The position numbers were made by a program, and so were the translations under genes. Source: Candidatus Thorarchaeota archaeon SMTZ1-83 (GTDB lineage: Archaea; Asgardarchaeota; Thorarchaeia; Thorarchaeales; Thorarchaeaceae). Taken from it: 26,238 nucleotides of DNA. This document shows positions 4,171-22,995 of the stretch, in pieces. The stretch covers positions 1-26,238 of the forward strand of contig LRSK01000010.1 in NCBI GenBank assembly GCA_001563325.1. Reading direction: 5' to 3'. Below the pieces are notes generated by a model that saw only the letters and a program-made list of their open reading frames with translations, ran no database searches and was not told the origin of the DNA. Numbering within the stretch: the stretch's first letter is position 1; the number at the start of each line of letters is the position of its first letter.

Positions 4171-4228
4171 TTTCTGCTCCAACTCAAGAGGAGTCGTCCT
4201 ATTAAGATACAACGTTCACTCTTTGGGT

Positions 4229-5122
4229 CTAGACTCCCATTCGATGCAGCTCTTCTTCCAAGAAACGCTTGGTCTGCTGCGTATTGTGCCAGCGTTCAGC
4301 GAACGTTCCTGGTGTGATTCTCTGCTCACTGTAGGCCTTCTGAAGGGCATCGAGCTCTTGCGCAGTCTCTGCGAGTCGATCCCTGTACATTTGTATCCGC
4401 ATTGCAGCGCCGGCCTCTTCAGATTCACTTGGTGTCTGGACCGATATTATGCGACCATCCATTATTCTATATATCCTATCAGTCCGTCTGGCAATTGCCG
4501 GATCATGGGTGACAATCAATACGGTCTTGCCCATTTCCTTATTCACTCCTATCAAGAACTCCACAATCTTGGCTCCTGTCTCAGTGTCTAAGTCGCCTGT
4601 AGGTTCATCACATATGAGAATCGGTGGGTCGTTCGCAAGGGCAGCAGCAATCGCTACTCGTTGTTTCTCGCCTCCTGAGAGCTCATCGGGTTTATGGTTA
4701 ATTCTCAGCCCGAGACCTACTTTGTCTAGAAGTGCAGTGACGCGTTTCTTGCGTTCATCCTTAGGTGTATTGATGGCGAGCATCGGTAGCTCCACATTCT
4801 CATACGCAGTAAGAGTAGGGATGAGATTCAGCGTCTGAAAGATATGGCCAACAACCTTCTGCCTCAATGCTCCTAGCTGTGCAGGATTAGACGATGAGAT
4901 ATCCTTCCCAGCAACCCAACTCTTGCCTGCCGTCGCATGGGTCAGGCCTCCAATTATGTTCAGCAATGTGGTCTTCCCAGAACCACTCGGTCCAACTATT
5001 GCGATTATCTCGCCCTTGTCTACCTTCATGGAGAGGCCCCTCAGTGCCTGGACTTCGACATCGCCGAGCTCGTATACTTTCACCAAGTCTCGTGTTTCTA
5101 TGTAGCTAGGTATGGATTCCAT
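4229..5122 (-). CDS. ABC transporter ATPase (LolD/MacB type) with C-terminal extension
   Basis: The 297-residue product has all ATPase motifs: Walker A GPSGSGKT (44-51), Q-loop Q96 in FQTLNLIPTLTAYENV, signature LSGGE (148-152), Walker B ILICDE (168-173), D-loop DLD and switch histidine H206. The LNLIPTLT and EPTGDLD forms are typical of the LolD/MacB/FtsE group that drives FtsX-like permeases by mechanotransmission rather than classic substrate pumping. The core ends near 228. About 70 more residues follow, mostly charged and helical (RDRLAETAQELDAL and beyond), likely a coiled coil not found in the minimal family. It follows the permease after 2 nt, with GGAG five bases before ATG 5122 lying in the end of the permease gene, so the two are translated together. 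Confidence 0.93.
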   Translation of the reverse strand: MESIPSYIETRDLVKVYELGDVEVQALRGLSMKVDKGEIIAIVGPSGSGKTTLLNIIGGLTHATAGKSWVAGKDISSSNPAQLGALRQKVVGHIFQTLNLIPTLTAYENVELPMLAINTPKDERKKRVTALLDKVGLGLRINHKPDELSGGEKQRVAIAAALANDPPILICDEPTGDLDTETGAKIVEFLIGVNKEMGKTVLIVTHDPAIARRTDRIYRIMDGRIISVQTPSESEEAGAAMRIQMYRDRLAETAQELDALQKAYSEQRITPGTFAERWHNTQQTKRFLEEELHRMGV

Positions 5123-5124
5123 TT

Positions 5125-7914
5125 CTACTCCCTCAGAACATCAACTTTCGATTCTGTGAATCTCGAAGCCAAGACTATTGGTACTAGAGCCGCCGCAAGG
5201 ACAGCAACGATCATAGTAATCATGCCAACAACCGCAGGTATAGATAGGACGACCACTGGTCTCACAAGCTGCTGCAAGTTCTGGCTCTGATTAGCAAGGT
5301 CGCCGAATAACTGAATGAACCCTGTTCCAACTCCCAGGATTAGCGAGAAGAGTATCATCACCATAATCTCCGCGATGAGGACTTTCAGAACTTGACTTCG
5401 GGTGAACCCGCGAACCCTGAGCAATGTGGTTTCGTACTCTTTTTCCCGCAGAGTAAGTCCCACAACCAGTGCAGTGCCAAAAATCGCCAATACCACTGCA
5501 AATACAACTCCCACCCAACGTGCTCGTGTGCCTCCAACCTCGAAGGTGTTCTCCTCCATAGCCTTAAGTGAAGATACCACTGAGTCTGTGCTCTCTACTT
5601 CGGGATATCTCGATGCTATCTCCTCTTCGAGAACTGTGCCGTTTACATCGGGAAAAGTCTTGACGAGAATGTGACCTTCGGCATACTCAGAAAGACCCGT
5701 CGAGTTGAGGAAATCACTGGGAACGAAAGACGGGTAAGTCCCACCGAAGGCAAATCGGCCGAAGTCCCGAGCGATGTCCCCTAGAAGTGCTTCGAATGGA
5801 CTGACGAATCCCACAAGACCAACAATCTCCATCCGGTGAACATCGCTAGCGCTTGTCCCACGAAGCGTTATGAAGTTGCCAATCCTGAGGTCAAGGGATC
5901 TGGCCACAGAGACTGACAGGAGAATCTTCTCTCCCGTGAAATTCTGGAAGACCTCATCCAGCGACGGACCGCTAAACCAGCTTTCCTCATAAAACGCGGC
6001 TTCGGTCCAATTTTCGGGGAAGATGCCTCGTATCTCCATACTGCCCGTGGTGCTACTCATCGTGAGTCTGTACTCCAACGTGACGGCTTGGACCCCTTCA
6101 AGCCCCTCAATCACTTCAATTGTGCCCGTGAGATTGGTGCCTGCCGGGAATATTGCACCAACGTCAGATCCGACATCATATAGAGTGGTACGATTGACAC
6201 GGTCCGCTTCTGAGAAGAGACCTCCAACACTGAACAATCCATACGCGACGATGAGTGCAACCACAAACACCAAAGCCGCGTTTCTCGAAGGATTCCTCTT
6301 CACATTCCTAGTCGCGAGCCTGCCAAAAGCACCAAAGAATCGGCTAAAAGTCTGAACGATTCCCTCCTGAAACTTCTGTGAGCCTCGGAGCAGTATCTTG
6401 GTTAGACCGTACAGAAACAAGATAGGGCCTGCAAAGTTGAGGAATCCGTCCACGGGGGTCCATATTGCTGTGACTATGAGGAGAAGGAAGTTTGTGGACA
6501 GGGCTCCCGAAAGCACACTCTGCATATTGATTCCTAGAATCCATGCGACGATCTTGTAGGTGCCGAGAACCAGGGCAATTGTGGGCAACAGCCTCTTGTA
6601 TTCTCTCCGTTCCTCGATGTATACGTACTGCTTCAGCGCATCGAGAGGATCGAGCTTGGATGCTCTTTCTGCAGGACCACGAACCGACCAGTACGCCAAG
6701 ATTAGCGCAAATGCAACAACGAATACTGAGGTCATAGGGTTGCCTGTGAATGCCAAGAGAGGGTTATCGATTGCCACCCCCACCACCATATGCCCAAGTA
6801 GTGTACCAAGAATCAAGCCCACTATTCCGCCGATCAGTCCGATTATCACTCCTTCCAACACAAGCATTCTCTTGATCGACTTCGGCCCAAGCCCTTTTGT
6901 CGACAGTAGACCAAACTCCCGACGTCGCAGATTGTAGCTTACGTCACTGAGCATCGTCGAGGAATACCAAGACATGAAGATGATAGGAGCCGCTAGGCTG
7001 ACGAAGGCAACGATTAGGATTGTGGACATGAGTGACACCATGGAGAGTGTAGGACCGACCAGATTCGTCACATCGGTGTTGAGAACTGCTGTTCTATCCT
7101 CTATTCTTGCAACGATATCATTGACAGTGGAAGAAGAGCCTCCCACATCATATGGGTTGATGACCATGTCTCTGTTGAGCTGGCATGCATATCCCGTAGT
7201 CATGAACATCCGGGTTCCATTCTCGTATCCATCAAACCATTCAATGAATGGAGCCATTGTAGATTCCCAGTCGACTAGCAGGAGGTTATAGTCGCGCCAA
7301 TTGCCAATCTCGATTTGGATGAATCCTAGGTTCAAGTATCGAGGAGGATTCAACAGGCGCGCAGTACGCTCAGGAATGTCCACATAACCAGCAACCGTGA
7401 GGTTAAGCTCAAGTTCCTCTATGTAAGGAAATTCTGTCGTCTGTACTCTGATCGGGAATTGCAGAATCTCACCCGCGGACAGAGCAGATGCGTTCACTGA
7501 GCTCGCAACAATGTAGGTTTCATTGGCGCCCAGTGTTGTTGAGCCGTTTATGTATTCGACCGTACTCCATGCAGCACTCAGAGTATTCAGCCCTATAACG
7601 TCAAAGGACGTCCCGGTTGTTTGGTTGTATGTGTAGACGACTTCCGAGTACACGTCTACTGATGACACCTCGGGCAGCCCCTGTAGAAGAGCCTCTAACT
7701 CGGCCATTTCAGTGTTCGACCAAGTGACATTGTTTGCTTGGACACGGAGATCATAGTCAACATTTTGAAGAGCGTTCAGCAGAGCCTCTCTAGATGTAAC
7801 ATCAGCAGATACGACCATGCCTGCGAAGAAAGTCGTGGCAATAAGGACGCCAACAGTGAGGGCAACGAAGAGTCGGTAGCCCCTGACGACTCTCTTCAGC
7901 GCGTATCTAAACAT
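5125..7914 (-). CDS. Large FtsX-like ABC permease (two FtsX modules, about ten membrane helices)
   Basis: The 929-residue product begins with helix 1 at about 15-36, followed by a large outside domain (38-288), then a helix block at about 288-320, 355-380, 393-410, 441-462, 475-507 and 543-566, a second outside domain (567-798) and three final helices (799-822, 842-870, 888-918). The layout is two FtsX/MacB-type permease modules fused in one chain. Partners of LolD/MacB-type ATPases move lipids, lipoproteins, peptides or signals at the outer face; the cargo here cannot be read from sequence. Several N-X-T/S sites lie in the outside domains. ATG 7914 has a TATA-like box at 7951-7958, predicting a leader of about 15 nt. 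The upstream ribosome binding site is weak (GAGAG). Confidence 0.9.
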   Translation of the reverse strand: MFRYALKRVVRGYRLFVALTVGVLIATTFFAGMVVSADVTSREALLNALQNVDYDLRVQANNVTWSNTEMAELEALLQGLPEVSSVDVYSEVVYTYNQTTGTSFDVIGLNTLSAAWSTVEYINGSTTLGANETYIVASSVNASALSAGEILQFPIRVQTTEFPYIEELELNLTVAGYVDIPERTARLLNPPRYLNLGFIQIEIGNWRDYNLLLVDWESTMAPFIEWFDGYENGTRMFMTTGYACQLNRDMVINPYDVGGSSSTVNDIVARIEDRTAVLNTDVTNLVGPTLSMVSLMSTILIVAFVSLAAPIIFMSWYSSTMLSDVSYNLRRREFGLLSTKGLGPKSIKRMLVLEGVIIGLIGGIVGLILGTLLGHMVVGVAIDNPLLAFTGNPMTSVFVVAFALILAYWSVRGPAERASKLDPLDALKQYVYIEERREYKRLLPTIALVLGTYKIVAWILGINMQSVLSGALSTNFLLLIVTAIWTPVDGFLNFAGPILFLYGLTKILLRGSQKFQEGIVQTFSRFFGAFGRLATRNVKRNPSRNAALVFVVALIVAYGLFSVGGLFSEADRVNRTTLYDVGSDVGAIFPAGTNLTGTIEVIEGLEGVQAVTLEYRLTMSSTTGSMEIRGIFPENWTEAAFYEESWFSGPSLDEVFQNFTGEKILLSVSVARSLDLRIGNFITLRGTSASDVHRMEIVGLVGFVSPFEALLGDIARDFGRFAFGGTYPSFVPSDFLNSTGLSEYAEGHILVKTFPDVNGTVLEEEIASRYPEVESTDSVVSSLKAMEENTFEVGGTRARWVGVVFAVVLAIFGTALVVGLTLREKEYETTLLRVRGFTRSQVLKVLIAEIMVMILFSLILGVGTGFIQLFGDLANQSQNLQQLVRPVVVLSIPAVVGMITMIVAVLAAALVPIVLASRFTESKVDVLRE

Positions 7915-8441: not shown

Positions 8442-11400
8442 CTAGTCTGGAGAGGATGATCTCTTCAGGAACACATCCCTGCGCCTACGCACATAGACCG
8501 GTATCAAGACAGTCAAGGCAATTAGGGGGGTCGCGACCAACGCAGCCCTGATTATGGCTTCCACCTGGGAGCCGGCTGGCTCCATTGAGCTCCCTACTGG
8601 GGGAACTGAAGGAGCAATCTCACTCCCCGACACCACGAGATATCTCCACTTGGAATGGATAGCAACGTCTGGTGGGGATGCAACGGAATAGAACCGGCCT
8701 ATCTTCGGGGATCTCAATCTCTCTTGAGATGAATAATGCCAGATGAGACGACGTGTTGCACCACTGACCACGTTGATGTATTCGTTATTCGTCATGATGA
8801 GATCATCGGCTTCGTCGCCATCCATGTGGTCGAAAGTGCACATACAGCTAGTATATGGACCACGAAGTGGCGCCAGGTATGTCCATGCGCCTTCATAGTA
8901 CGGATAGGTTGCCTTGTAACGCACTGCGACAATCCCAGCATCAACATAGTTTATGACCAACTCATCAATTCCATCACTGAGGTATAGGTCGGCAGAATAG
9001 AAGTCCCGTATGTTCTCATCCGGAAGGACTACTGAATAGTAGACTGACGTTGTTGGCGATAGGATTGTAGTCAAGTTTCCGTATGTCCTCACTGCGATGT
9101 CTGTTACTCCATCGCCGTCGAAATCCCCGGTCTTGATGTCGCCGATGTTGGCCCCCGTGCCAATACTCCATCCAGGGTCACCATTACCCTTTAGCACCGT
9201 GAGCGTATTATCCTTCCCTCCAATGACAACATCGTAGAGTGTGGGACTCCCACTAAAGCGGCCAAGGGCCATATGGTTTCCAGTTGATGTTGCATTCGCT
9301 AGGCTCCAGTACAGGGAATTGCCTGAACGGTCAAACCAACCGACCCAGGCAGAGGATGAGCCTTCGAAGAGAACCGCAATCTCATGATGGATGTGAATGG
9401 CATCGGGCACAAAATCGGCAATATGAAAGTCAAGAATGCCTACTCCAACAGTCGGGGTAATAGTTCCTATCTTGGTCCCAGTGCCTGCATTGAAGATTGC
9501 CACAGACGACTTGTCAAGGAGAACTCCAATCTCTAAGTCGGGATTGTCGTCGAGCTGGCCAAACCTCACCTCAGTGATAGATTCGCCGATCGACAGATTC
9601 CACAAAGCTGCACTCGTCGTTCCGTTGATTAGGAGCAGATTATGAGTACTGGTGGCCAGCACAATTTCATCTCTTGCATCTCCAAGAATATCCTTCACCC
9701 ACATCCCGGTAACAGCTGCTGGAGAGGTTTCTTTCTCCCAGTAGGCCTGATGCGCCGTGTAGGCTGGTGGTGTCAATGGCAAAATCCTCTCTTCGCCCTC
9801 GAAGGCCTGCAAAGTTCGGTTGATGAAGTCCCAGGCAATTATCGCGGCTGAATCAATACCCGGTAGTCTGGCAATGGTGGCACTCCACGGAAGTCCGTTA
9901 GTCACATTGAACCACATGAGAACTCCATTCTTTCCATCAACGGCACCTACTATACCGAGAGGCGTGAACGGGTTGCTGATCGCGACAGCGATGTCTAAAG
10001 TCCCCGAACCGCCGAGATATCCAACGTCTATGGCCAAGACTCCGATATTCTCGGCGGAAGGTCTGTAGTTCCATTGACTCCTACCAGTGGAGGGTTCTTC
10101 AAGGAAGAGTCCCTTGTCAATAGAGTGGACCAGCACCTCATCCACACTGTCTCCATCGAAGTCTCCGAGGAAAAGCTGGCTCATAAGCCCCCTTTCTGTG
10201 GTGTTATAATACGTGGTTCTCGTTTTGAAGTCGAGCAACGAGAGGCCGAACCGCCCACCGCCGAGGTTCGTAGCATAGATTAAGTCCACAAAACCGTCTT
10301 CGTTCATATCGCTAGTCAAAAGATCCATCTCATAATCAGTCACCCAATCGGCGGTTTCCCATAGCACGGTACCGTTAACCGGATTCACGAGTTGAATTCG
10401 AGATTGGCCAGTCACGACGGCGACAAGTAGTGTCGAGTCACCCGTGAAGTTTCCTACGACAAGCCGGTAGGCGGCATCCACCGATACTGATGTGTCATTC
10501 ATGTACTGTCCTTGGTGTGAAACCATCCATATCTCACCTGTGGTGGTTCCGAACACTATCTCCACGGAGCCATCAGCGTTCACATCTGCTACATCCATAC
10601 CTAGATACTCACCTGAAGCGATGTTGTACCTCCATAACTCTAAGCCATTCGTGATGTTCAGGGCATAAATGGTTGAATTCTGGCTAGTCAACAAGACTTC
10701 TGGAATGCTGTCGTTTGTTATGTCTTCAAGTAACATGAAGTTGAAGCCGACTCCCTCATCGGTGTTATTCCAGACAAGAGTAGCTCCGTCGTCATTCAGA
10801 CAATAGACCTCCCCGACGTCAGTTTCCGCGACAATGATTTCGTCATATGTGTCACTGTCAACGTCATAGACCTGCAAGAGTCCGTGTGTGGCGGGCAGAG
10901 AACCTATTCCGGGGGTAGCAAAATCCCATAGCATCTCGGAAACTCTGAGCTCGGTTGCACCCTCAGAAGTGTCGAGGTACTCCATGATGTAGACTTCACC
11001 ACGTCCGGTTGAGATTCCGATTTCGGGGAAAACATTGCCATTGGAGTCATAAACAGTGACACCAGTGACCTCGTTGTCATATACCTTTGACAACCAGACC
11101 TCTTCATAAACGGCCATGTCATCAACTCCAATGGAGTGCTTCATCTCATAGACGCCAACTTGCTGTTCGAATGCAACCATAACCTCCTTTCGGCCATCAT
11201 TGTCAGTGTCCCCCGTGTCGAGATCGACTACATTCCTCAGAGTGTTCCCGGTCCAATCCGAGCTGGGGTTGATGCCATAGACAAGGTCAGTATTGAATCT
11301 GTAAAGTAAATCCTGACCTTTGAAGCCGGTCCAGTAGTGGCTGAACATCTCTACGTACATGAATCCGGCATCGGTCAGTCCCAGCACGCATGGAGATTTC

Positions 11401-14400
11401 GCCGTTGGGCCGTATATCAGATCGCCTGTTGCCTGATATGTGAAATTCACTAAGTTTGTATCGGGGTCCTCAGTTCTCTGAATGTAGTTCGGAATTGTGT
11501 TCAGAGTTTCCTGAACACTCCATGTTGCACCCTTGTCCCTGCTCCCAACCATTCCTATTTGATCTTCGAATAGAACCCCGGGAGTCTCATAGATGACTAT
11601 CAATGATTCATCATCGGATCTCTGATAATTGATATCTGGAAAAATCTCGTCTTTGAAAGACGTCGTTGCCTGATGGGCGATGGAGCCGGTGAAGTTGAGC
11701 TCACTGTCTGCAACAAGGACCCAGATATCATAGTCTGGTTTTGCTGTCAGTGTGTTTATCGCGGACAATGCAAGAGCGTGGTCACCACTGGGTAGCTTCA
11801 CAACTGATGCAGACTGTGCATCCAACTCGTTCCAGTTGGGATAGAAGTTGCCATACCATACCGGTGGTGCGGTGGGTGTGCCTTTGTGTATGAAGTTGCG
11901 ATAGACTCTCTTAACGTCAGTCTTGGTGTAGATGACTCCTACATGTGAACTGTTGTATACCCAGACCTTGGGGAAGTTTCTAGTAACATCGGCGTTGGTT
12001 CTTATCTTGGTGGGTTGCGTCCAGGTCTTTGTGAATGCATCAAACCTTGAGATATAGAAGTCGTATGTGCCACCCATCGAATCGAAGGCCTTCCATGTCA
12101 GATAGATATCTCCATCGCTGTCTGAGGTCACGCATGGCTGCACTTCTTCAGTTATTATCATCGACCCTCCAGGGTCGTAGTCCGCATCGTCAAAGATCTG
12201 TACGGCATCACCCCAAATTCCTGTAGATATCGTGTAATTCTTCCAGTATAGGTGACTCTGATTCACATAAGCCAAGAAGACCTTGTCCGAAAGAGTGGAC
12301 TTGCCTTCTGTCAAGTCACTGCAATATTGCCAGTCATTGACATTGATGTCCTCACCAGCACTCCTAACTGTATCAAGCTGTACCAAGGGATAGTTAGGAG
12401 AAGCGGTGACAAACTCGACCTTCTTGTACTGCGAATCTGTCCCCGGTATCCATTCCCACATATCAAAACCATGACTGTGGCCGATGATGATTTCCTGGGC
12501 ACCATCATAGTCCTGATCGTCAAGTGTAAGGCAACTGACAGGGTTCCAGAATATCAACTCCCATGGAGCTGTCCAGGACCAAGTGAAAGTACCTCCTTTG
12601 CATTCGTATGTGTTTACAAAACCGTGTGGACGCGAGTACCTAGTGTCCAGGGTACCTCCGATGATTATTTCCCGATATCCATCCTGATCTGTGTCACACA
12701 TCACTATGGCGTCAATGCAGGCGTACTGGTAGTCCAACACGCCTGAGGGGTCGGCGAGAGCATTGCCAAGTAACATGTATCTGCCATCAAGTGCGGGACT
12801 CGTCATGAAGAAGTCGTTGTCCTGAGTTCCATCCCAGGAATCTTGCGGAACATTGTAGATGAATAGGAACGGACCAGCCGCAACTGCTACCTCCAACCTG
12901 CCATCGTAGTCTATGTCATCACCTGCTGCAATGGCGGTCACCTCGGTCACGTGATCCCACTCAGCCGTCAGATTGAACACCGAATCACGAATGTCGATTG
13001 AGTACGCAAAGCCGATAGCATCCCCGCCGGTAAGACCCAGCTCCTCGAATACGTATATTTGAAGGTCGGCTGCCACAATCAGCTCCTTCAGACCGTCTTG
13101 GTCTAGGTCTACGTCTGCAATCAAATGATTAGCGTGATCCCAAATCCGTCTATTGAAATCTCCACTAATGCCCTCCAACTCCTCATAGAGATAGGGGCTT
13201 ACTGAACTCTTCTCAGTGTGATTCAGGTCGAATGAACGGAACATTCTCTTGTAGGTGTTGTTTGTCATATGTTCAAACACGTATACATTCGAATCGTAGT
13301 CACCGACTATCATCTCACCTTTGCCGTCATTATCAATGTCTCCTGAAGCAATGGAAAGGGTCCATTCCTCTAGATCATCCTCATTGCTCCAAGCCTCATG
13401 AATATGGAAACCCGCGTTCTTGAAAGCAGTGCTGTTCATTAGGCTGAAGTCGATTCTAAGGGCTTCGGGGTATGTAGCAACCAGATAGCTATCAATTGCA
13501 TCGTAGAGAGGCTCGGCAAGAACCATCTTCCAAGTATCTGGGTTGATTCCTGTTAGAGTGAAGTTGCCCTTCACTTCAATATCAAAGAAGTCATCGTAGT
13601 ATCCGAGCGTGTATTCATCAGTATTCGGGACGAGTCTGACATCCTTGTAGCCCAAGTACTTCAGATTGGTGGTAAGCCCCGGGTTGGAGAATATACGCTT
13701 CTCTTGTTCCCACGTAGGATCGTTGTTTGATCCTCTGTTGATGAAGCATGTAGCGCCATCCTTGTCAGCATAGTTCATAATGAGATCGAAGTCACCATCT
13801 TCGTCGACATCAACTAGGTCGGGCTGTCCCCAGATGTAGCTAGTTTCATACTCGTTCACTTCATCAAAGTATCCCCTTACCAGTGTGAAATTCGTCACCC
13901 CGAGTTCAGAGAATGTGTTCTTGGCCAGATACACCTCACCTGTGGAGAGAATCATGTCCAAGTCTTTGTCTCCATCGACATCTTCAAAGTCCATACGAGG
14001 CGTTGTCTGAGCCACTCCGACCAGCTGGACAAGCTCGCCAGTGGTGTCAACGAATCCGAGTGAGAAGTAGTTCTCGTACGGATATGGTGAAACAACTGAC
14101 CTATAGAAGAAAAGCACCTTCCCCCTCTCCTCTGGGTCTGTTACTTCAAACGGGTCGAGTTCGGGCTTCAGCATCCCACACACAATGAATGGATAGCCAC
14201 TTATCTCATTATGAAAAGTCCCATCGAAGTTAGCAAACCAAGGAGCCTCCGCGGAAACGTCCCACGGGCCGCCTATTGCCAAGGTTGGGTTTATGGGAGC
14301 AACCATGGCTGCAAAGTCGACGTCTGTAACCTCTGACCCTGTTGGATAGTTGAAATAGATACCTCCACCTCCCTTCGTACCAACAATGTACTGGCCTAGG

Positions 14401-16439
14401 CCTGACATAAACGGCTGGAGTTGTGCGTAAGTCCAGGAGTTGTATGAGAAACCAGGATCTGACATAGTCAATGGTAGGAACGGGAGGTCAGGATATGGTG
14501 GTTCAAGTATTCTCCAGATCGGGAACGAGGGGCCGACTTTGGCAACCTCAGAGATGAACTCGATGTCCCAAATGTTTGTCCCCAGGTTGTAGAAGTCATC
14601 AGGTCCGGACTCCCACAAAATCTCGTATCGGTTCTGACCTTCGTTCCATCCTACTGAGATGAACTCGCCATTGACCGCTCCGACGAGTATCCTGTTCGGT
14701 TCCCGTGAATGTGTTAGATATGCATCACCGTCCAGGCGAAGTGGGGCTATGCAGACAGACAGAGCATCTGTTATCAGGTTGTAGATGTACCTGAGTTCGA
14801 TGGAATTGACTGAGTAATCTGCACCGTCATAGACGGTCAACTTCGCGTATCTAAACCAGTCCCATTTCCTCCTACTGAGGGCATCGTCAACATCGATGAA
14901 CAACTTGTTGAACAAGTAGGTGTATTTTGTCGAAGACACCTGCTCGAATGTGGAACCATCCTGAGATATGCTGAAGTTGAATTTCGTTCGAATGCTCGAA
15001 TCCAACATCTCATAGAAAGTGACAATCAGGTCATAATCAGAAGATGCACTTCCAGTGCCTTCTTCGTCCAGTCCGAAGTCAACGACGGCTGTGGCGTTGT
15101 CGACACTAGGTACAGTTGTGTCGAATGTTGAGTAGTTTCCGTCCGTATAAGATGCCATGCCAGTGTTGTATGGATACACGTTTGCATCAGGTAGGAACTT
15201 GAGGAGCGCCTCACTCCAAGTGTACTGGATGGGCTCTGGTACTATGAGAGAGGAATTCACAGGGTCGTGATAAGTGACGTTCTTGGCCCACACAACCCGG
15301 TCAACCCATTTGTCAAGACCCCACAGACCAAAGGTTTCCCACGGCTCAAAGTCGCGGATCACCTTTCTGTAATCAAACGTCTGTCGGAGCGAGTTCCAAT
15401 CAAGCGTAAACAGACCCTGACCTTGAGCCACTATAGCCAGCTCGTCCCCCAGGGATCCGTCTAGCTCACCAACATCCATAGATACGATTGGTGTCCAGGT
15501 GTAGTTGGCGCTTGACCAGTTTAGATAGTAGTAGTTGTCTCTGACAAGCGGAAATGGGTGACCGTCAATCCATATAGTCAAGCCACCATTCTCAAACACG
15601 TAGACTCGGCCTTCCCTTGTACCAACCACTATCTCAGGAAGTCCGTTTCCATTAGTGTCGCCCGTTTCTAGAGTATAGATCTTGCCCTCGATTTCATCAC
15701 CAGAGTTCCAGACCTCCCGATACGTGATCCAATGCTCTTCTGCGAACGGATATCCAGAGTGGTCATCATACTCGAAACAGCGTACCGTCCCGTCCCAAGC
15801 ACCAGCCACAATATCTGGACGGAAGTCACGGTCGACATCGTCAACCTTCACCGCCATGACTTTTCTCATTCCAGGACTGGTCCAGACGTGGTCAAACATG
15901 TTCTCAGTGTTTGCGAAGGGATCATAGATGTGCCTCTGCTCAAAGACGTACACGTGCCCATCTGAGCTCCCAACGACAATCTCAATGAAGGAATTCAGAT
16001 CAGTATCGCCGAAGTCAAGGCTCATGACGTCTGACCTGAGGACTCCGTCGCCAGTGTCCCATACTTTATCGAACTGCCCACTCTCGACGTTTAGGCGGAA
16101 TATGTGGACCTCATTATCAAAGAGGTAACCACCACCTAGTGCCAAGAAGCCGGTGTCCTCATCATAGGCAACTGCGTGTACGGCAGCCTTTGATCGCCAG
16201 GGCTCATACGTAAGCTTGTAGTCATTGATTCTGTCACCAAGAACACTGCCAATATCGTAATCATCAGGAAGGTAAGGAGATATGTCAGACAGCGCTCTGT
16301 TGACAATGGGGGCGATGTCGTCGGGAAGTTGATCCAGGCCAACATCTACGATGTCGGCGAAGACAGGGGCACTCGGAACGGCACCAAATCCTACCGCCAT
16401 CAATCCAACAATGACAATTGTCAGTAGCTTGTGTTTCAT
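8442..16439 (-). CDS. Giant membrane-anchored exoprotein: FG-GAP beta-propellers with sialidase-like region
   Basis: The 2665-residue product has a signal peptide (cleavage near VFA, 26-28), a long outside part, one membrane helix (about 2629-2650), then an RRRR stop-transfer and a 15-residue tail. About 27 FG-GAP/VCBS-like blades follow the pattern GD-D-x-D-G...E-I-x-V-G...V-Y-V-F-E, with Ca-binding-type Asp loops: a group at about 140-345, two near 815-890, five at about 1035-1320 and the rest at about 1745-2595. Such blades fold as integrin-alpha-like propellers. Between blade groups lie a possible jelly-roll (about 420-560) and a sialidase-like stretch (about 1356-1713) with an Asp box SRDKGATW near 1633. 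Binding to glycans or other cells is inferred; no enzyme active site is claimed. ATG 16439 is chosen because GGGAGGTG ends six bases upstream; the earlier in-frame GTG 16448 is part of that site. Confidence 0.9.
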   Translation of the reverse strand: MKHKLLTIVIVGLMAVGFGAVPSAPVFADIVDVGLDQLPDDIAPIVNRALSDISPYLPDDYDIGSVLGDRINDYKLTYEPWRSKAAVHAVAYDEDTGFLALGGGYLFDNEVHIFRLNVESGQFDKVWDTGDGVLRSDVMSLDFGDTDLNSFIEIVVGSSDGHVYVFEQRHIYDPFANTENMFDHVWTSPGMRKVMAVKVDDVDRDFRPDIVAGAWDGTVRCFEYDDHSGYPFAEEHWITYREVWNSGDEIEGKIYTLETGDTNGNGLPEIVVGTREGRVYVFENGGLTIWIDGHPFPLVRDNYYYLNWSSANYTWTPIVSMDVGELDGSLGDELAIVAQGQGLFTLDWNSLRQTFDYRKVIRDFEPWETFGLWGLDKWVDRVVWAKNVTYHDPVNSSLIVPEPIQYTWSEALLKFLPDANVYPYNTGMASYTDGNYSTFDTTVPSVDNATAVVDFGLDEEGTGSASSDYDLIVTFYEMLDSSIRTKFNFSISQDGSTFEQVSSTKYTYLFNKLFIDVDDALSRRKWDWFRYAKLTVYDGADYSVNSIELRYIYNLITDALSVCIAPLRLDGDAYLTHSREPNRILVGAVNGEFISVGWNEGQNRYEILWESGPDDFYNLGTNIWDIEFISEVAKVGPSFPIWRILEPPYPDLPFLPLTMSDPGFSYNSWTYAQLQPFMSGLGQYIVGTKGGGGIYFNYPTGSEVTDVDFAAMVAPINPTLAIGGPWDVSAEAPWFANFDGTFHNEISGYPFIVCGMLKPELDPFEVTDPEERGKVLFFYRSVVSPYPYENYFSLGFVDTTGELVQLVGVAQTTPRMDFEDVDGDKDLDMILSTGEVYLAKNTFSELGVTNFTLVRGYFDEVNEYETSYIWGQPDLVDVDEDGDFDLIMNYADKDGATCFINRGSNNDPTWEQEKRIFSNPGLTTNLKYLGYKDVRLVPNTDEYTLGYYDDFFDIEVKGNFTLTGINPDTWKMVLAEPLYDAIDSYLVATYPEALRIDFSLMNSTAFKNAGFHIHEAWSNEDDLEEWTLSIASGDIDNDGKGEMIVGDYDSNVYVFEHMTNNTYKRMFRSFDLNHTEKSSVSPYLYEELEGISGDFNRRIWDHANHLIADVDLDQDGLKELIVAADLQIYVFEELGLTGGDAIGFAYSIDIRDSVFNLTAEWDHVTEVTAIAAGDDIDYDGRLEVAVAAGPFLFIYNVPQDSWDGTQDNDFFMTSPALDGRYMLLGNALADPSGVLDYQYACIDAIVMCDTDQDGYREIIIGGTLDTRYSRPHGFVNTYECKGGTFTWSWTAPWELIFWNPVSCLTLDDQDYDGAQEIIIGHSHGFDMWEWIPGTDSQYKKVEFVTASPNYPLVQLDTVRSAGEDINVNDWQYCSDLTEGKSTLSDKVFLAYVNQSHLYWKNYTISTGIWGDAVQIFDDADYDPGGSMIITEEVQPCVTSDSDGDIYLTWKAFDSMGGTYDFYISRFDAFTKTWTQPTKIRTNADVTRNFPKVWVYNSSHVGVIYTKTDVKRVYRNFIHKGTPTAPPVWYGNFYPNWNELDAQSASVVKLPSGDHALALSAINTLTAKPDYDIWVLVADSELNFTGSIAHQATTSFKDEIFPDINYQRSDDESLIVIYETPGVLFEDQIGMVGSRDKGATWSVQETLNTIPNYIQRTEDPDTNLVNFTYQATGDLIYGPTAKSPCVLGLTDAGFMYVEMFSHYWTGFKGQDLLYRFNTDLVYGINPSSDWTGNTLRNVVDLDTGDTDNDGRKEVMVAFEQQVGVYEMKHSIGVDDMAVYEEVWLSKVYDNEVTGVTVYDSNGNVFPEIGISTGRGEVYIMEYLDTSEGATELRVSEMLWDFATPGIGSLPATHGLLQVYDVDSDTYDEIIVAETDVGEVYCLNDDGATLVWNNTDEGVGFNFMLLEDITNDSIPEVLLTSQNSTIYALNITNGLELWRYNIASGEYLGMDVADVNADGSVEIVFGTTTGEIWMVSHQGQYMNDTSVSVDAAYRLVVGNFTGDSTLLVAVVTGQSRIQLVNPVNGTVLWETADWVTDYEMDLLTSDMNEDGFVDLIYATNLGGGRFGLSLLDFKTRTTYYNTTERGLMSQLFLGDFDGDSVDEVLVHSIDKGLFLEEPSTGRSQWNYRPSAENIGVLAIDVGYLGGSGTLDIAVAISNPFTPLGIVGAVDGKNGVLMWFNVTNGLPWSATIARLPGIDSAAIIAWDFINRTLQAFEGEERILPLTPPAYTAHQAYWEKETSPAAVTGMWVKDILGDARDEIVLATSTHNLLLINGTTSAALWNLSIGESITEVRFGQLDDNPDLEIGVLLDKSSVAIFNAGTGTKIGTITPTVGVGILDFHIADFVPDAIHIHHEIAVLFEGSSSAWVGWFDRSGNSLYWSLANATSTGNHMALGRFSGSPTLYDVVIGGKDNTLTVLKGNGDPGWSIGTGANIGDIKTGDFDGDGVTDIAVRTYGNLTTILSPTTSVYYSVVLPDENIRDFYSADLYLSDGIDELVINYVDAGIVAVRYKATYPYYEGAWTYLAPLRGPYTSCMCTFDHMDGDEADDLIMTNNEYINVVSGATRRLIWHYSSQERLRSPKIGRFYSVASPPDVAIHSKWRYLVVSGSEIAPSVPPVGSSMEPAGSQVEAIIRAALVATPLIALTVLIPVYVRRRRDVFLKRSSSPD

Positions 16440-16440
16440 G

Positions 16441-19400
16441 CTAAGCACCTCCCTTCTTGCCCTTGGCCGGGCCAGATTCCTTCTTGGTCACCTTTCTTCT
16501 CTTGCCCTCTGCCGGCTTCTCGGACGATTCGGGTCCTTCCGACGGGGCCTCTTCAGGAAGTTTCGCTTTATCCGGTAGACCTTCTACAGGTTCAGCGTCC
16601 TCCGGTGGCATAGTAGCCTCCGGTTCGACCTTAGGACGTCTTAGAAGACGCCTCAAACCACGACCGACAATCCCGGTCCTTCGTTGTGCGATGCCCAATA
16701 CGACGACCAAGCCCACCATAACGACACCAATGATGCCGACGTAGAACCAGAACGGGTCATCTCCGGGTTGCACAGTAAACCAGATTGAGGCTGCATGAAC
16801 AACGCCGGATGCATTCCTCCCGTAGACGTATAGAGTGTAGTTCTGGTTAGCGGCCCAACGTATCTCATTGCTTCTCCAAAGCTGTGAAGCCGAATCGTAG
16901 TCAAGACTGTAGTTGCCCATCCATTCAACCGTTCCGTTTCTGAACCTGAACCACATCTCCTGGAATGGCGTGAAGTTTGCTACCTGAACGGGAGTGTTCT
17001 GATAGACCTGTGTGGAATGCTTGGGCGTCATCACTAACAAGGTACGCTCGCCACGCCGAACCGCCAGATGGGTCTCGAACTCCTCTTGAGAAGTGAACGC
17101 CAGTGGGTTGAGGCCCAGAGCTATCTCCAGACCGTCAGCATAGCCGTCATCATCTGAATCCCGGTCAGTAGGATCTGTGCCATATACGTAGAACTCCTCG
17201 CCATCCAAGATGCCATCAAGGTCCGAGTCAGGTGCCATTATCCCTCCACCGGGCGTCGATTGTAGACCAAGTATGAACTCAACTCCATCAGCCAAACCAT
17301 CATAGTCGGTATCAAACTCGTATGTATCTGCGACACCATCATTGTCGGAATCCTCATCGGTCGGATCAGACCCGTAGAACAGAACCTCAGCACCATCTGG
17401 AAGCCAGTCGTTGTCAGAGTCCCAATCTGTAGCAGATGTCGTGTATATCGGCACGACGGCTGCAGCTACAAACCTATCGTTCGTGATTTCCGTCATTGAT
17501 AAGGCCAGGAGCTCTTCTGGATGTTCTATCGTTTCAGTAACATTGCCACCTTGCCATCCGATGGACCAATTTGTGGGAGGCCACGGACCCCAAGGCCAGA
17601 CTTCAGAAACAACTTCTTCGTTGTCAAGCAGTCCGTCGCCATCTGTATCATCATATAGTGCCGATGTATTGTAGACCCAAATCTCCCACCAATCTGTTAT
17701 GCCATCTCCGTCAGTATCATTGCTGGCGGGGTCGGTCATGAAGATGATGACCTCTTGGTAGTCTGTCAGTGTGTCATTATCCGAGTCTTGTAGAACTGGT
17801 GACGTGTTGAACCTATTCACAATAGTGATAGCCCTGTAAGGATAGACGATATCTGTTACATTCTGAAGACTAAGCTCTGACCCATCCTTCAGGAAGTCGT
17901 CATCTGTGTCCGCGTCAAGCGGGTCAAGTAGAACGGGATCCATCCATGGAATCTCGCCCGAGCCAAGGTAGAGCTCTATTCCGTCTGATAGACCGTCGAG
18001 ATCAGAGTCAGGATCAGTGGCGTTTGTTCCATGTATCTTGACCTCGTCATAGTCGCTCATTGGCCAGGTCATAGCACCGAACTGGTTCGGCTCCCGGACA
18101 GAGTCATGGTCAGTGTCCCAACTGAGCGGGTCTGTATCATAGTAGAGAATCTCCTCACCATCGGAAAGACCATCGTAGTCGGTATCATACTCGAACGGAC
18201 TAGTGTAGTAGATCAATATCTCCTCGAAGTCAGTCAGCCCGTCGTTGTCAGTATCTTCGTCCATTGGATCAGAGTCGTGTAGGAGTACTTCTTCTCCGTC
18301 CAGCAGAAGGTCCGCATCGCTGTCATCAATCAAGGGATTTGAATGCCACCAGAAGACCTCTTCGCCGTCACTGAGTCCGTCAAAGTCAGAATCACTGATT
18401 CTTGGGTTTGTAAAGAAGCGGTAGAACTCATCGCCGTCACTTATCATATCAAGGTCCGTGTCTGAGCTCCTAGGGTCACATCCCAGGAGCATCTCCTGCA
18501 TGTCGAATAGACCATCATCATCTGTGTCAGGATCTAATGGATTTGTGTGATTGCTCCATTGACTAAGGACTCCCTCAAGCCCGTCAAGAAGACCGTCATC
18601 ATCAGTGTCTCCATCAGTCGGATCAGTCGGTGGAGTCTGAGCGAGCTCATATCCGTCTGAGTTGAGCCACGCACCGGGAACTGGAGTATGGTCTGTGATT
18701 CCGGTGTCGCCATCTGTGTCAGGATTGACTGGATTTGTAAACACTTGTTTGTCATAGGGCTCACCCTCCTCGTCATAGAATACAATCCAGAAACCAGCCA
18801 CCTCAGCACCGTCGTTCATGTCCTTGAGAAATGTGAGAGCCTGGCTGTCGATGACTCCGTTGTAGAGTTGCAGATAGGAATCATCATCTGTATCATAGTC
18901 AAGAGGATGGGTGAATCCTCCGTTGAAGATGATTGGATTCGGGTCCATTGCCCACTCGCCGGAGTCCTCATCGTATGTATCGTTGTAGAGACTCCCAAGT
19001 CCATAGTACGCACCCATTGGACCCTCGTCACCGTCCATCAGCGAGTCGCCATCTGTATCTGGGTTCAACGGGTCCGTATGGTCATTGTAGGATACACCTC
19101 CGATGACCACTTCCGTGACAGTGGGTGTGACATTTGAGATGTCAATTGCCGTATAGATCTCGTAGGCGTCCGTCAGGCCATCTCCGTCTGAGTCCTGAGT
19201 AAGAGGATTGGTGCCATAGATTCTCACCTCATCATAGTCAGGTACATCATCCCAATCGGAGTCCTCCCAGACAGGAGACGTTCCTAGGTCCCACTCCTCT
19301 CCATCTGTAAGCCCATCTTTGTCCATATCGGGATCAGATGGATCGGTTCCCATCGTCTGGACTTCGAGCTTGTCGTTTGCGCCATCACCGTCTGAGTCTG

Positions 19401-22400
19401 CCTTATTCTTATCAAGCCCCGGCGTTCGTTCCTCGAATTCGTCACCTAGTCCGTCCCCATCCGCGTCAAACCCTATTCCTGACTGTTCATACTCCGCCTC
19501 ACCTTTGTTTGGTGACAGGTCCCATGGCCCTCCTGGTTGCCAAGTCCATTTGTGAGTATCAGTGACAAATAGGAAACGGAGCTTCACCTTTAACGTGAAT
19601 ACGAGCCGTAATGTGATCTTCATCGGCGCGCTCGATGCAAAGTCCTGGAAGAACGTCAGTATGATCTCTAATGACCCATCTAGCGTTATTGCAACAATTA
19701 TGAGCTCGATTGGTATGTGCAGTGCCAAGCCAAAGATGATTTCTAGGGTAAGTGTGGATGTTTCCGGTTCCGTAGCAGTCGCCGCCATCTTCACTATGTC
19801 AAGTACTATGTCAAAGTAGATTGTTAGGGTGATGGTATCAAGCCCTAGGAACTCCGAGACCGCCAATAAGGCTCCGCCGCCAGTGCCAGCCGTGAAGAAA
19901 TCGATGAGAGTGAATACCTTGCCAATGTGTATCTTGATGTGTAGACCCCATTCGACCACTTTGAAGAAGTTGTCCCATTCGAAGACGCCTCCTCTAAAGG
20001 TGAAAAGGTTGAGCACAAACCGAGCGCTGCCCTCAAACGCAAGCTCAAGACCTAGAGATTTGAGCATGGTTCCCATTAGTGCATTCTTTGAGGAGTCGAA
20101 GCCACCAACGCCGACCTCTGCGTAGAATTGCGGACTGATCTCAAAGAACGAGAACAGTAGTTTGAAGAACTCGCCAATCTCGTCCATAGAGAAGACGCTG
20201 CGGGCATCGAATATCATGCTGGCAATCATGTCGAACAAGGGGCTTAGATCGATTGCAAAGTTGGCCCTGATGCCAAGAGCAAACGTGAAGTCGAAGAGTG
20301 ACCATTGACCAAGCCCTATCGGTATCTTGCCTGAATATCCAAGAAGGTCGTCCAATCCACCAAAGATGTCAGTGATTGTTTCTTCCAGTTCATCAAACAC
20401 AGGATTAAGCATCCCACTCAGCCAATCGAATATCTTCCCAATCAGCCACTCCACACCATTGGTGAAGATACCCTTAATATCCATGAAGAACTCGAGAAGT
20501 TCCTCCAGCATGGTGAGGTCAATGACACCTGTCAGATGTCCAGAGGCGCAATCCAGAATCTCGTTGATGACTTCAGTAGGACTTGGAGCATCGCCCCTTG
20601 CAAACTGAAACGCGTCTGGGAAGAAGGACTGCATCAGTTTGAGGAATGCATCGATTGGAACATCATCAAACGATGGGAATGTTCCGATGACTGAACCAGC
20701 CGACATCAATAGGGATTGCATGATTCCTTGGAAGGACTGGCCCTTCACAAGCTGAATCATGTTGACGATTCCGCCGACTATTTCTCCAGCTGTGCCAAGA
20801 ATAGAGTCCACATCGACTCCCAGGCCACCGAACACATCACTCAAGTCAAGGAACTGGAAGACGCTCCTGAAGATCTCAGGTAGAGAACCGAGCTCGGACG
20901 CAAAATCCTCCACCGTTTGTGACACCATGTTCTTGAGAGCATTGCTGTCAGAAACCAAGGCTATAATGCCCATCACTGGTTTCACAGCTTGATTGAGAGC
21001 ATTAACAACATCTGATAAATCTCCAGGACTCAAGCCGGCTTGCTGCATTATGTCCTCAGCTATGTCAAAGATGTCTGGAATCGAGCTCTTGTCAAAAGCC
21101 TCGTTGTAGAAGCCTCCTAGAAGTGTCATCAAGTCCTTTACCAGGTTCTTTACATCAACAGAAACAGTTGTGTAATCATCAAGTATCTGTTGAATGTCTG
21201 TTCGGAACTGGCTTAGGTCTGAGTCTGATGCTTCTTTGAAGTCCCTTGTGACATTGAGGAGCTTTCTTGTGAATTCCTCGACTTCTACAGTAATCTGAAG
21301 TTCTCCGATGAAAGCAGTGGAGATTCCGTCAAGGAGTTCGACAATCGATGAGGCATCAAACTCATCAACAAGGTCTATGGCAGTCATGCCAATCTCGACA
21401 ATCGACATAATCTTCTCGATCTCATCGTCTATGCCCGCCACACTGAGAACAGACCCCAGTAGGTCCGTACTCAAGTCCTGCAAGAACTCAACATGGTTTC
21501 GACTTGCGAGGAAGTCTACCACGGATTCGATGAAGGCTGTCATTCTGCCAAGGATGGGCGTTAGGTCTCCTGGGGACACACCCATTGTTGCCGCCAATGT
21601 CTTGTTCAGAAGCGATTGGAGAGTGTTCTTGGTGAAGAACCCGAAGACGACGTCAAAGACACCCTTTCCACCTGAAGCTGCATCGGATATGAGATCCCAG
21701 AGGCCGCCTGAAGCACCAAGCATGTTGGTCAGGAAATCCTTCACAATCTCAGGTATGGAATGGGGCAGAAGTGAAGTGAGGAGTTCTCCAACTATCTCCA
21801 GAATGCTTGAAAGGTCGCCTCTCAAGTTGAAGAGAGCCTTCAGGATGATATTCAGATAGTCCTTGAACTCAGCCATGAACGGAAACTCAGATGCCAAAGC
21901 CTCAATTACCGACTTCAGAGGTGACTCTGCATCAAAGTCACTGACAATTCCTATTATGGGTTCGATGATTTGGAAGGCATCCTGTATAGTCTCGATTATA
22001 TCAGTTGGGACCGAGATAGCCGTCTTCCCTGCATTCTTTAGCACCTTCAGCAAGACATCAACGATCTTTCCAATTGGGCCGTTCAGTGCAGAGAAGAGAG
22101 GGATATCACCAATCTTGAAATCACTGGCGGTCATTTCCGCTTCAGAGCTGACCTTCACTGCCGGTGAGAAGTTGGCAGGCAGGTTCTCCAAAGAGAGCTC
22201 TTGAAGCGAACCATTGTCCATCATTTGGTAGGCCGCCGGCTCAATCTCTGATTGATGTCTAGCCCACATCGTAGCTGTACGAGCTTCCAGCTCAACTGGA
22301 TCAATCTGGCCTACTGGATCAATGGGCTCAATGCTTCTCCGGAGAAGCTGATTGAGATTGTCCCCATAGATCTGTAGCGCTAAATCTCTAACATCCTCTG

Positions 22401-22995
22401 AAGCCCCCTTGTACTTGTCATCTACTTGCGCTCGCGTTTCAAGAGTTTCATACAGTGCCCAAATGTCATACATTATGAGCAGAAGCCCGTCTATCTCCTC
22501 TGCCTCGCTGTGTTGTATCATTGTGTCGCTGGGTTCAAGATGTTCGGCGAATGACAGAGTGTTGCCCATTCCCAGAATATGTTGAGTCTGTCTGTGTTGA
22601 CTGAGAAGTCTGTAGAACTCCTGCCAAGGCGTGAGCCGGTCAGGGATTATCACGCCCGTCAGGTTAGACCTAAGCGAGTACACCGATATCCACGGCTCCT
22701 CGGAGAGCCAATGCTCCATATCATTGTAGGAGTTGATTGGGATTTTCCGGACGGTATTGATTCGGTATGAGATGATCTCATAGACACCTTGCGCTACGGC
22801 CGACATCGTGTCGTCGGACGGATCATAGAAGAGATAGATGTCATCCAAATCGTATCCTGTGAAAGGTTTCGGGAACAGCTCTTCTTCTTGGTCTATTTGC
22901 TGACCAGCCCAAGCTGCTTGTGGAATCATCCCAAGCAGCAACAATGTGAGAAAAGCAGATGTAAGTAATCTAATCCTGAGCAGTCTTCTGTTCAC
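16441..22995 (-). CDS. Giant membrane-anchored exoprotein: amphipathic domain plus thrombospondin type-3 Ca-binding repeats
   Basis: The 2184-residue product has a signal peptide (cleavage near AWA, residue 30), an unrecognised N-terminal domain (about 30-295), a hydrophobic, mostly helical region (about 297-895), a strand-rich hydrophobic region (about 898-1145), about 26 TSP3-type repeats (about 1175-1965), a small strand-rich domain, one membrane helix (about 2082-2103) and a tail of about 80 residues rich in Arg/Lys, Pro and Glu. TSP3 repeats of the form D-x-D-x-D-G-L-x-D-x-x-E bind calcium and make stiff rods. The protein is therefore likely held on the outer face by its C-terminus. GTG 22995 is the start, with GGAG four bases upstream; the nearby ATG is out of frame. 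It is the first gene of an operon with the FG-GAP giant. The hydrophobic region resembles nothing I can name. Confidence 0.88.
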   Translation of the reverse strand: MNRRLLRIRLLTSAFLTLLLLGMIPQAAWAGQQIDQEEELFPKPFTGYDLDDIYLFYDPSDDTMSAVAQGVYEIISYRINTVRKIPINSYNDMEHWLSEEPWISVYSLRSNLTGVIIPDRLTPWQEFYRLLSQHRQTQHILGMGNTLSFAEHLEPSDTMIQHSEAEEIDGLLLIMYDIWALYETLETRAQVDDKYKGASEDVRDLALQIYGDNLNQLLRRSIEPIDPVGQIDPVELEARTATMWARHQSEIEPAAYQMMDNGSLQELSLENLPANFSPAVKVSSEAEMTASDFKIGDIPLFSALNGPIGKIVDVLLKVLKNAGKTAISVPTDIIETIQDAFQIIEPIIGIVSDFDAESPLKSVIEALASEFPFMAEFKDYLNIILKALFNLRGDLSSILEIVGELLTSLLPHSIPEIVKDFLTNMLGASGGLWDLISDAASGGKGVFDVVFGFFTKNTLQSLLNKTLAATMGVSPGDLTPILGRMTAFIESVVDFLASRNHVEFLQDLSTDLLGSVLSVAGIDDEIEKIMSIVEIGMTAIDLVDEFDASSIVELLDGISTAFIGELQITVEVEEFTRKLLNVTRDFKEASDSDLSQFRTDIQQILDDYTTVSVDVKNLVKDLMTLLGGFYNEAFDKSSIPDIFDIAEDIMQQAGLSPGDLSDVVNALNQAVKPVMGIIALVSDSNALKNMVSQTVEDFASELGSLPEIFRSVFQFLDLSDVFGGLGVDVDSILGTAGEIVGGIVNMIQLVKGQSFQGIMQSLLMSAGSVIGTFPSFDDVPIDAFLKLMQSFFPDAFQFARGDAPSPTEVINEILDCASGHLTGVIDLTMLEELLEFFMDIKGIFTNGVEWLIGKIFDWLSGMLNPVFDELEETITDIFGGLDDLLGYSGKIPIGLGQWSLFDFTFALGIRANFAIDLSPLFDMIASMIFDARSVFSMDEIGEFFKLLFSFFEISPQFYAEVGVGGFDSSKNALMGTMLKSLGLELAFEGSARFVLNLFTFRGGVFEWDNFFKVVEWGLHIKIHIGKVFTLIDFFTAGTGGGALLAVSEFLGLDTITLTIYFDIVLDIVKMAATATEPETSTLTLEIIFGLALHIPIELIIVAITLDGSLEIILTFFQDFASSAPMKITLRLVFTLKVKLRFLFVTDTHKWTWQPGGPWDLSPNKGEAEYEQSGIGFDADGDGLGDEFEERTPGLDKNKADSDGDGANDKLEVQTMGTDPSDPDMDKDGLTDGEEWDLGTSPVWEDSDWDDVPDYDEVRIYGTNPLTQDSDGDGLTDAYEIYTAIDISNVTPTVTEVVIGGVSYNDHTDPLNPDTDGDSLMDGDEGPMGAYYGLGSLYNDTYDEDSGEWAMDPNPIIFNGGFTHPLDYDTDDDSYLQLYNGVIDSQALTFLKDMNDGAEVAGFWIVFYDEEGEPYDKQVFTNPVNPDTDGDTGITDHTPVPGAWLNSDGYELAQTPPTDPTDGDTDDDGLLDGLEGVLSQWSNHTNPLDPDTDDDGLFDMQEMLLGCDPRSSDTDLDMISDGDEFYRFFTNPRISDSDFDGLSDGEEVFWWHSNPLIDDSDADLLLDGEEVLLHDSDPMDEDTDNDGLTDFEEILIYYTSPFEYDTDYDGLSDGEEILYYDTDPLSWDTDHDSVREPNQFGAMTWPMSDYDEVKIHGTNATDPDSDLDGLSDGIELYLGSGEIPWMDPVLLDPLDADTDDDFLKDGSELSLQNVTDIVYPYRAITIVNRFNTSPVLQDSDNDTLTDYQEVIIFMTDPASNDTDGDGITDWWEIWVYNTSALYDDTDGDGLLDNEEVVSEVWPWGPWPPTNWSIGWQGGNVTETIEHPEELLALSMTEITNDRFVAAAVVPIYTTSATDWDSDNDWLPDGAEVLFYGSDPTDEDSDNDGVADTYEFDTDYDGLADGVEFILGLQSTPGGGIMAPDSDLDGILDGEEFYVYGTDPTDRDSDDDGYADGLEIALGLNPLAFTSQEEFETHLAVRRGERTLLVMTPKHSTQVYQNTPVQVANFTPFQEMWFRFRNGTVEWMGNYSLDYDSASQLWRSNEIRWAANQNYTLYVYGRNASGVVHAASIWFTVQPGDDPFWFYVGIIGVVMVGLVVVLGIAQRRTGIVGRGLRRLLRRPKVEPEATMPPEDAEPVEGLPDKAKLPEEAPSEGPESSEKPAEGKRRKVTKKESGPAKGKKGGA
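16446..16453 (-). promoter_or_regulatory. Strong ribosome binding site inside the end of the upstream gene
   Basis: On the minus strand GGGAGGTG lies six bases before ATG 16439 and overlaps the last Gly-Gly-Ala codons of the 2184-residue protein. The stop TAG at 16441-16443 is one base from the ATG. This decides the start and implies translational coupling. Confidence 0.8.
17100..19475 (-). repeat. Coding tandem repeats: about 26 thrombospondin type-3 units
   Basis: Within the 2184-residue protein, DxDxDG-type acidic loops recur about every 20-45 residues, usually followed by x-x-D-G-x-E-x and a short turn with NP or DP. Examples are DSDGDGLTDAYE, DTDDDGLLDGLE, DSDFDGLSDGEE, DTDYDGLSDGEE and DSDDDGYADGLE. 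DNA copies are diverged, so this is an old protein repeat rather than a recent DNA expansion. A few units have lost the glycine or an acidic residue (for example the units with DSY and DTGITD). Confidence 0.85.

Follow-up and report, generated by a model that had tools for sequence, protein, structure and literature searches.

The window analysed here is a 26,238-nucleotide stretch of contig LRSK01000010.1 from Candidatus Thorarchaeota archaeon SMTZ1-83, and its minus strand carries two consecutive genes for giant predicted surface proteins, referred to as P1 and P2. P1 (16441..22995, (-)) starts with GTG and encodes a 2184-residue protein of the TSP3 type, and P2 (8442..16439, (-)) starts with ATG and encodes a 2665-residue beta-propeller protein of the FG-GAP type, or one of 2668 residues from the alternative upstream GTG given in the mechanical open reading frame (ORF) list. 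One base separates the P1 stop codon TAG (16443-16441) from the P2 ATG (16439-16437), and the P2 ribosome-binding site, GGGAGGTG (16446..16453, (-)), lies within the last codons of the P1 reading frame, 6 nt from that ATG. A first-pass annotation, made from the sequence alone, had described an operon of two giant genes of 2184 and 2665 residues, one base apart and with the second ribosome-binding site inside the first gene, and both the ORFs and the coordinates confirm this layout. Of 38 separate P1-P2 pairs, 35 have a Shine-Dalgarno-like motif inside the final 30 nt of P1 (as compared with 5 of 23 P2 or fusion ends used as a control), and in L002, one of the three pairs without it inside P1, it falls just 3' of the P1 stop. 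In many relatives P1 ends in KGG, EGG or a similar sequence, which is expected if those codons double as the ribosome-binding site of P2. Matched amounts of P1 and P2 arising from coupled translation are plausible.

The first-pass annotation also assigned each protein a signal peptide and one C-terminal membrane helix, and in agreement with this, hydropathy analysis finds one strongly hydrophobic segment at either end of each chain (residues 5-28 and 2080-2110 of P1, 3-31 and 2626-2651 of P2). In P1, the N-terminal signal-like segment (residues ~1-30; 22906..22995, (-)), in which WAGQ is conserved in the family consensus, precedes an alpha/beta domain that is Rossmann/caspase-like (49-224; 22324..22851, (-)). 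The structure model, which is of modest confidence (predicted template modelling score, pTM, 0.49), continues with a helical region of ~25 mostly amphipathic helices (307-877; 20365..22077, (-)) and a sheet domain of nine long strands of 13-19 residues plus a tenth that is short and polar (883-1152; 19540..20349, (-)); a further hydrophobic stretch at 1081-1117 is a beta-strand in this model. Each of the nine long strands has one hydrophobic face, and the mean difference between faces is 3.49 Kyte-Doolittle (KD) units, as compared with 0.82 (maximum 1.57) in 2000 within-strand shuffles. Pfam and motif counts then place a TSP3-type array of DxDxD loops at residues ~1177-1957 (17125..19467, (-)), with TSP3_bac (PF18884), the sole Pfam family found in P1, scoring 65 bits against a cut-off of 25. 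P1 has 26 non-overlapping DxDxD motifs, exactly as the first-pass annotation had counted, and a stricter pattern occurs 21 times against a mean of 0.02 and a maximum of 1 in 300 composition shuffles. The C-terminal membrane segment, within residues 2080-2110 (16666..16758, (-)), is followed by positive charge, as is that of P2, and by a charged tail of ~80 residues in all. P1 is not simply a TSP3 rod: the loop array is one segment of the chain only, and the 1150 N-terminal residues, to which no known family could be matched, had been overlooked. Single-chain searches of the PDB with P1 and P2 gave no match at E 0.01. A profile of the P1 N-terminal part matched sc-apCC-6-LLIA, which we take to be a designed coiled coil, at 4.4e-4, along with nine weaker entries (up to E 5), and these were taken as chance.

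The N-terminal half of P2 (residues 35-1230; 12750..16337, (-)) is predicted to consist of beta-propellers, a fold that models well (pTM 0.79). The Pfam matches of P2 are to FG-GAP_3 and to propellers of the CGLA and PQQ types, with FG-GAP profiles above cut-off. There are 23 non-overlapping DxDxD motifs rather than the ~27 loops claimed previously, and the stricter pattern is found 16 times against a shuffle mean of 0.23 and a maximum of 3, again in 300 composition shuffles. A C-terminal membrane segment within residues 2626-2651 (8487..8564, (-)) leads into a short tail of ~15-19 mostly basic residues. The contrast between a charged tail of ~80 and a basic tail of ~15 residues, to which attention had been drawn, is real, but the tails are not diagnostic because that of P1 ranges from 7 to 101 residues among the 22 of 38 pairs in our survey of tails and anchors (16 pairs with a truncated or split partner were omitted). 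At a KD threshold of 1.6, this survey finds a C-terminal membrane segment in 22 of 22 P1 and 19 of 22 P2 proteins; the P2 of L117 is a narrow miss (1.55), and the short P2s of L147 and L166 are clearly without one (0.61 and 0.72).

We next consider which organisms carry these genes. A search of 5.8 billion proteins, with scoring restricted to the candidates sharing most words, returned 33 matches to P1, of which 29 are P1 relatives, namely the window's own protein, 26 proteins at 54-65% identity and two at 35-36%. Where the source names them, these come from Thorarchaeota, Lokiarchaeota or Hodarchaeales; the remaining four matches cover 3-7% of P1 and contain TSP3 repeats. P2 gave 161 matches, and the named ones among the 120 listed include Thorarchaeota, Heimdallarchaeum endolithica, a Njordarchaeia protein and two P2 relatives from Lokiarchaeum ossiferum (40-43% identity over 98-99% of length). 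In a third protein search, the new entries were one close fragment (P0156) and six distant proteins. Scanning genome contigs by TSP3 peptide patterns yielded 79 loci, mostly apparently unrelated TSP3 proteins, from which we retained L001-L003, whose match extends across nearly all of P1. That of L019 (labelled Heimdallarchaeota) is confined to P1 residues 1199-2113, the genome of L041 has no P1 match, and that of L056 has one at another place. Among 227 genomes of the Asgard phylum, in which at most three (P1) or six (P2) candidates per genome were scored, the P1 N-terminal part was found in 48 and P2 in 47, with 41 genomes having both (Fisher p 2.5e-31, kinship ignored). As far as searched, the pair is peculiar to Asgard archaea.

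The first-pass annotation had made its proposal depend on the two genes being neighbours in at least some relatives. Forty-five P1-type genes, that of the window among them, can be read through to their 3' end; P2 lies directly 3' of P1 in 38 of these, and the two are fused in a further two, making 40 of 45. This count keeps both members of near-identical genomes (G218/G219) and leaves out P1 genes cut by a contig end (e.g. L111, L114, L121, L138, L139, L142 and L170), six loci with long N-runs at or beside the place next to P2 where P1 would be expected (L153, L154, L160, L162, L164 and L165), L158, in which P2 is at a contig end, and P0104, P0106 and P0049, which are proteins and not loci. 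In L165, P1-like and P2-like frames flank the N-run. Adjacent or fused pairs occur in genomes of Thorarchaeota, Heimdallarchaeota/Hodarchaeota and Promethearchaeia, with named carriers of the adjacent pair including a Hodarchaeota metagenome-assembled genome (MAG; L001), a Heimdallarchaeota MAG (L002), a MAG labelled Lokiarchaeota (L003) and Harpocratesius repetitus of the class Promethearchaeia (L134). P1 is the 5' gene except in G054 and G048, which have, as a second arrangement, a reversed P2'-P1' order (L163/L145 and L172/L146). Together, these data indicate that P1-P2 is a real, conserved two-gene module of giant predicted surface proteins. In the near-single-contig genome G054, a standard pair and a reversed pair lie close by on the same strand, giving four giant genes (L163 1-18001), and the second P1-type gene that follows the P2-like gene (L145 7101-12373, L146 3317-7820) is itself followed by genes for a NosD-type beta-helix protein and a large TPR protein.

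Several features of this gene family suggest that P1 and P2 likely form a physical unit, namely their fusions, the short paralogous pairs, the loss of an anchor from short P2s and the agreement of their distances. A single open frame spans P1 and P2 in L124 (4881 residues) and L127 (4836 residues), where the P1 membrane segment and a basic tail run into the P2 signal segment and the rest of P2 with no stop between. P0104 (4355 residues) and P0106 (4348 residues), in which the membrane segment at the P2 end is just below the KD threshold, likewise keep both segments at the joint and bring the sequence groups with in-frame fusions to three; the fragment P0049 resembles L124. Short paralogous pairs (L147-L150 and L166) have a P1 of ~1535-1610 residues that retains the sheet domain and is mostly missing the helical region, and they keep the P1-P2 order. 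The complete short P2s of L147 (1939 residues) and L166 (1953 residues) have no C-terminal membrane segment although their P1 partners do, and they would consequently need P1 as an anchor. Finally, the P1 and P2 distance matrices correlate with r 0.92 across 34 pairs (from 31 of 37 separate loci, from the window and from both fusions after division near the joint), a value that none of 2000 permutations reached (maximum 0.37).

In line with these observations, we consider it probable that P1 and P2 are two subunits of one membrane-anchored, calcium-stabilised surface complex, which would serve in surface recognition or attachment and as a protein coat. After export, each chain would stay attached through its one C-terminal membrane helix, nearly all of its mass lying outside. 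P1 would supply the anchor and a stalk, the calcium-type TSP3 array, stiffened by calcium and bearing a large head composed of the alpha/beta domain, the helical array and the long-stranded sheet with its one oily face, and the propellers of P2 would be the part that recognises partners or surfaces. Ribosomes finishing P1 would begin P2 on the spot, which would favour production in matched amounts and assembly of the nascent chains, and the two ectodomains would come together outside the cell. A two-part surface complex was also the proposal of the first-pass annotation, and adjacency, fusions, coupling and matching distances make it the best reading. In its favour, too, the cultured L. ossiferum, which has two P2 relatives, displays complex surface proteins and no highly ordered S-layer (PMC9834061). 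Other observations weigh against it. Five of the 45 P1-type genes (L144, L145, L146, L151 and L171) lack a P2 directly 3', with L145 and L146 having a P2-like gene upstream instead (L163 and L172); 173 of the 227 genomes yielded neither gene in the search described above, many of them being incomplete assemblies; and no P1 of L. ossiferum was recovered in two protein searches. In addition, the agreement between P1 and P2 distances is inflated by shared descent, and coupling and gene order of this kind are common among functionally linked genes and are no proof of a complex. Observed are the gene order, the ribosome-binding site inside P1, the fusions, the agreement of distances and, in the model, the propeller fold of P2; export, P1-P2 contact, calcium, location and function are inferred.

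Other readings of the pair can be weighed against the same evidence. Operon neighbours need not bind each other, and in 19 of 22 pairs each protein has an anchor to itself, so that P1 and P2 might be co-expressed surface proteins that never touch, with coupling merely matching their supply; however, repeated in-frame fusions, the anchor lost from two short P2s and the pairing preserved among short paralogues make this improbable. The two proteins are giant, acidic, rich in calcium-type loops, predicted to be membrane-anchored and made as a pair, and L. ossiferum cells, as described in one report (PMC9834061), have a single membrane with complex surface densities, all of which would suit an Asgard equivalent of a surface layer (S-layer), a two-component coat over the cell. 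We regard this as unlikely, given that both genes were found in just 41 of the 227 genomes and that L. ossiferum has complex surface proteins and no highly ordered S-layer (PMC9834061; PMC12993045). The match of P2 to Beta-prop_CGLA, the lambda-carrageenase propeller (71 bits against 26.8), and a weak BNR match could suggest that the pair captures or processes polymers, polysaccharide among them, by means of propellers that bind or catalyse, but propeller similarity is unspecific and neither Pfam nor NCBIfam names a catalytic domain, and we hold this to be very unlikely.

A further reading, which we view as a minority possibility, is that P1 may be an extracellular lipid carrier like the large lipid transfer proteins (LLTPs) of animals (vitellogenin, MTP and apoB), in which helices cradle a sheet and oily faces line a cavity, with P2 docking P1 to partners or to the envelope. 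When the P1 model was compared with 350,542 PDB chains by Foldseek, MTP ranked first at E 5.8e-4, the sole row below 0.001, followed by lipovitellin in second place (1.3e-3), MTP again in fourth (0.019), honey bee vitellogenin in fifth and sixth (0.022 and 0.023) and apoB100 in 13th (0.23). LLTPs are built of helical repeats around amphipathic sheets, as stated in PMC9219001, and the P1 model likewise has mostly amphipathic helices followed by strands whose one-sided hydrophobicity far exceeds that of within-strand shuffles; by secondary structure and face hydropathy P1 shares this trait, within the modest confidence of the model. Lol/MacB-like ABC genes 3' of the pair, in the window and in some relatives, would also suit a lipid-handling role. 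By contrast, there is no sequence match, and P1 is predicted to be membrane-anchored and is archaeal; with the present model no superposition of the global folds was obtained (template modelling, TM, scores of 0.09-0.10 alongside the best E of 5.8e-4). LLTPs have an N-terminal beta-barrel domain, and P1 in the model starts instead with its alpha/beta domain. The Vitellogenin_N and Vit_open_b-sht profiles match neither P1 nor the P1 places in 22 genomes; PF01347 matches elsewhere in 14 of the 22, among which it is above cut-off only in G004, and it is above cut-off in one control genome as well, and PF09172 matches in two of the 22, none above cut-off and none at the P1 place. Overall, the modelled P1 weakly resembles the solved structures of animal lipid carriers, and the idea that P1 may bind lipid is live but unproven. 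Somewhat less probable still is the fuller proposal that P1 is a surface-anchored lipid carrier built like vitellogenin or MTP, made in step with, and sometimes fused to, a giant propeller receptor, P2, and that it takes up, holds or exchanges lipids between the archaeal cell and the partners with which it lives in syntrophy. If true, this would give archaea a counterpart, arisen by descent or convergence, of machinery known in animals. With the hydrophobic sheet of P1, the notion that an Asgard surface protein handles lipids becomes open to test.

Asgard archaea are relatives of the ancestor of complex cells, and models of how such cells originated give contact with partners a central place. 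Asgard cells display surface densities in tomograms that are unassigned in the parts of the literature seen, for which this conserved pair, present in several Asgard lineages, offers concrete candidates.

Comparison with known systems yields partial likenesses only. CglD and MtsD are myxobacterial surface proteins of the TSP3 type, and P1 shares their loop array, matching the NCBIfam models of CglD at 125 bits and MtsD at 28.8 bits via the repeats; however, these scores are far below the cut-offs of 400 and 800 bits, and P1 differs in having an unrelated N-terminal half and a gene partner. FG-GAP propeller surface proteins include integrin alpha and LINKIN, which like P2 combine FG-GAP propellers outside the cell with one membrane helix, and integrins likewise pair two chains. 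By contrast, P2 is 2665 residues long with more than one propeller and has no PDB sequence match at E 0.01, and integrin beta-chain domains are absent from P1, where Pfam finds only TSP3_bac. The top Foldseek rows for the N-terminal half of P2 are DDB1 and SF3B3 (E ~1e-15), the latter presumably being the protein behind rows listed as spliceosome or U2 snRNP chains; the TM-scores of 0.12-0.21 indicate that propellers are held in common and their arrangement is not, and both proteins are intracellular and eukaryotic.

Neighbouring giant genes have been reported in Heimdallarchaeum, as aloposons, and in Thorarchaeota, and according to that study the aloposon giants adjoin tRNA sites and the tandem genes of Thorarchaeota resemble their neighbours (Wu et al. 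2022, PMC8813620). No tRNA was found in the window or in 20 loci scanned, in stretches extending a few kb past the pair, and P1 and P2 show no similarity that would make them duplicates of each other; these two differences set P1-P2 apart from the giants as that study presents them. An open frame of 5328 residues on contig 1 of G013 (2220611), presumed to be the Heimdallarchaeum endolithica genome, is possibly a reported aloposon giant. In open-licence PMC literature, no paper combines Thorarchaeota and TSP3, none combines Asgard, archaea and FG-GAP, and among the matches listed (titles and abstract starts) there is no description of the P1-P2 pair.

On the 3' side of P2 in the window, three genes follow on the same strand (3277-7914, (-)), encoding an ABC permease with an FtsX domain (LolC/MacB-like; 5125..7914, (-)), a LolD-like ABC ATPase (4229..5122, (-)), both assigned by profile matches, and an Asparaginase_2 family protein. 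Permease and ATPase recur together in L116, and the permease alone is in view in L118, L133 and partly L130. An obligatory operon with an ABC transporter was rejected, as the 3' genes differ among 20 loci, with the first few kb in view, and the permease and ATPase are at most accessory since they are present 3' of the pair in some relatives only. Upstream of P1, a divergent gene encodes a 604-residue PIN-domain protein (23446-25260, (+)).
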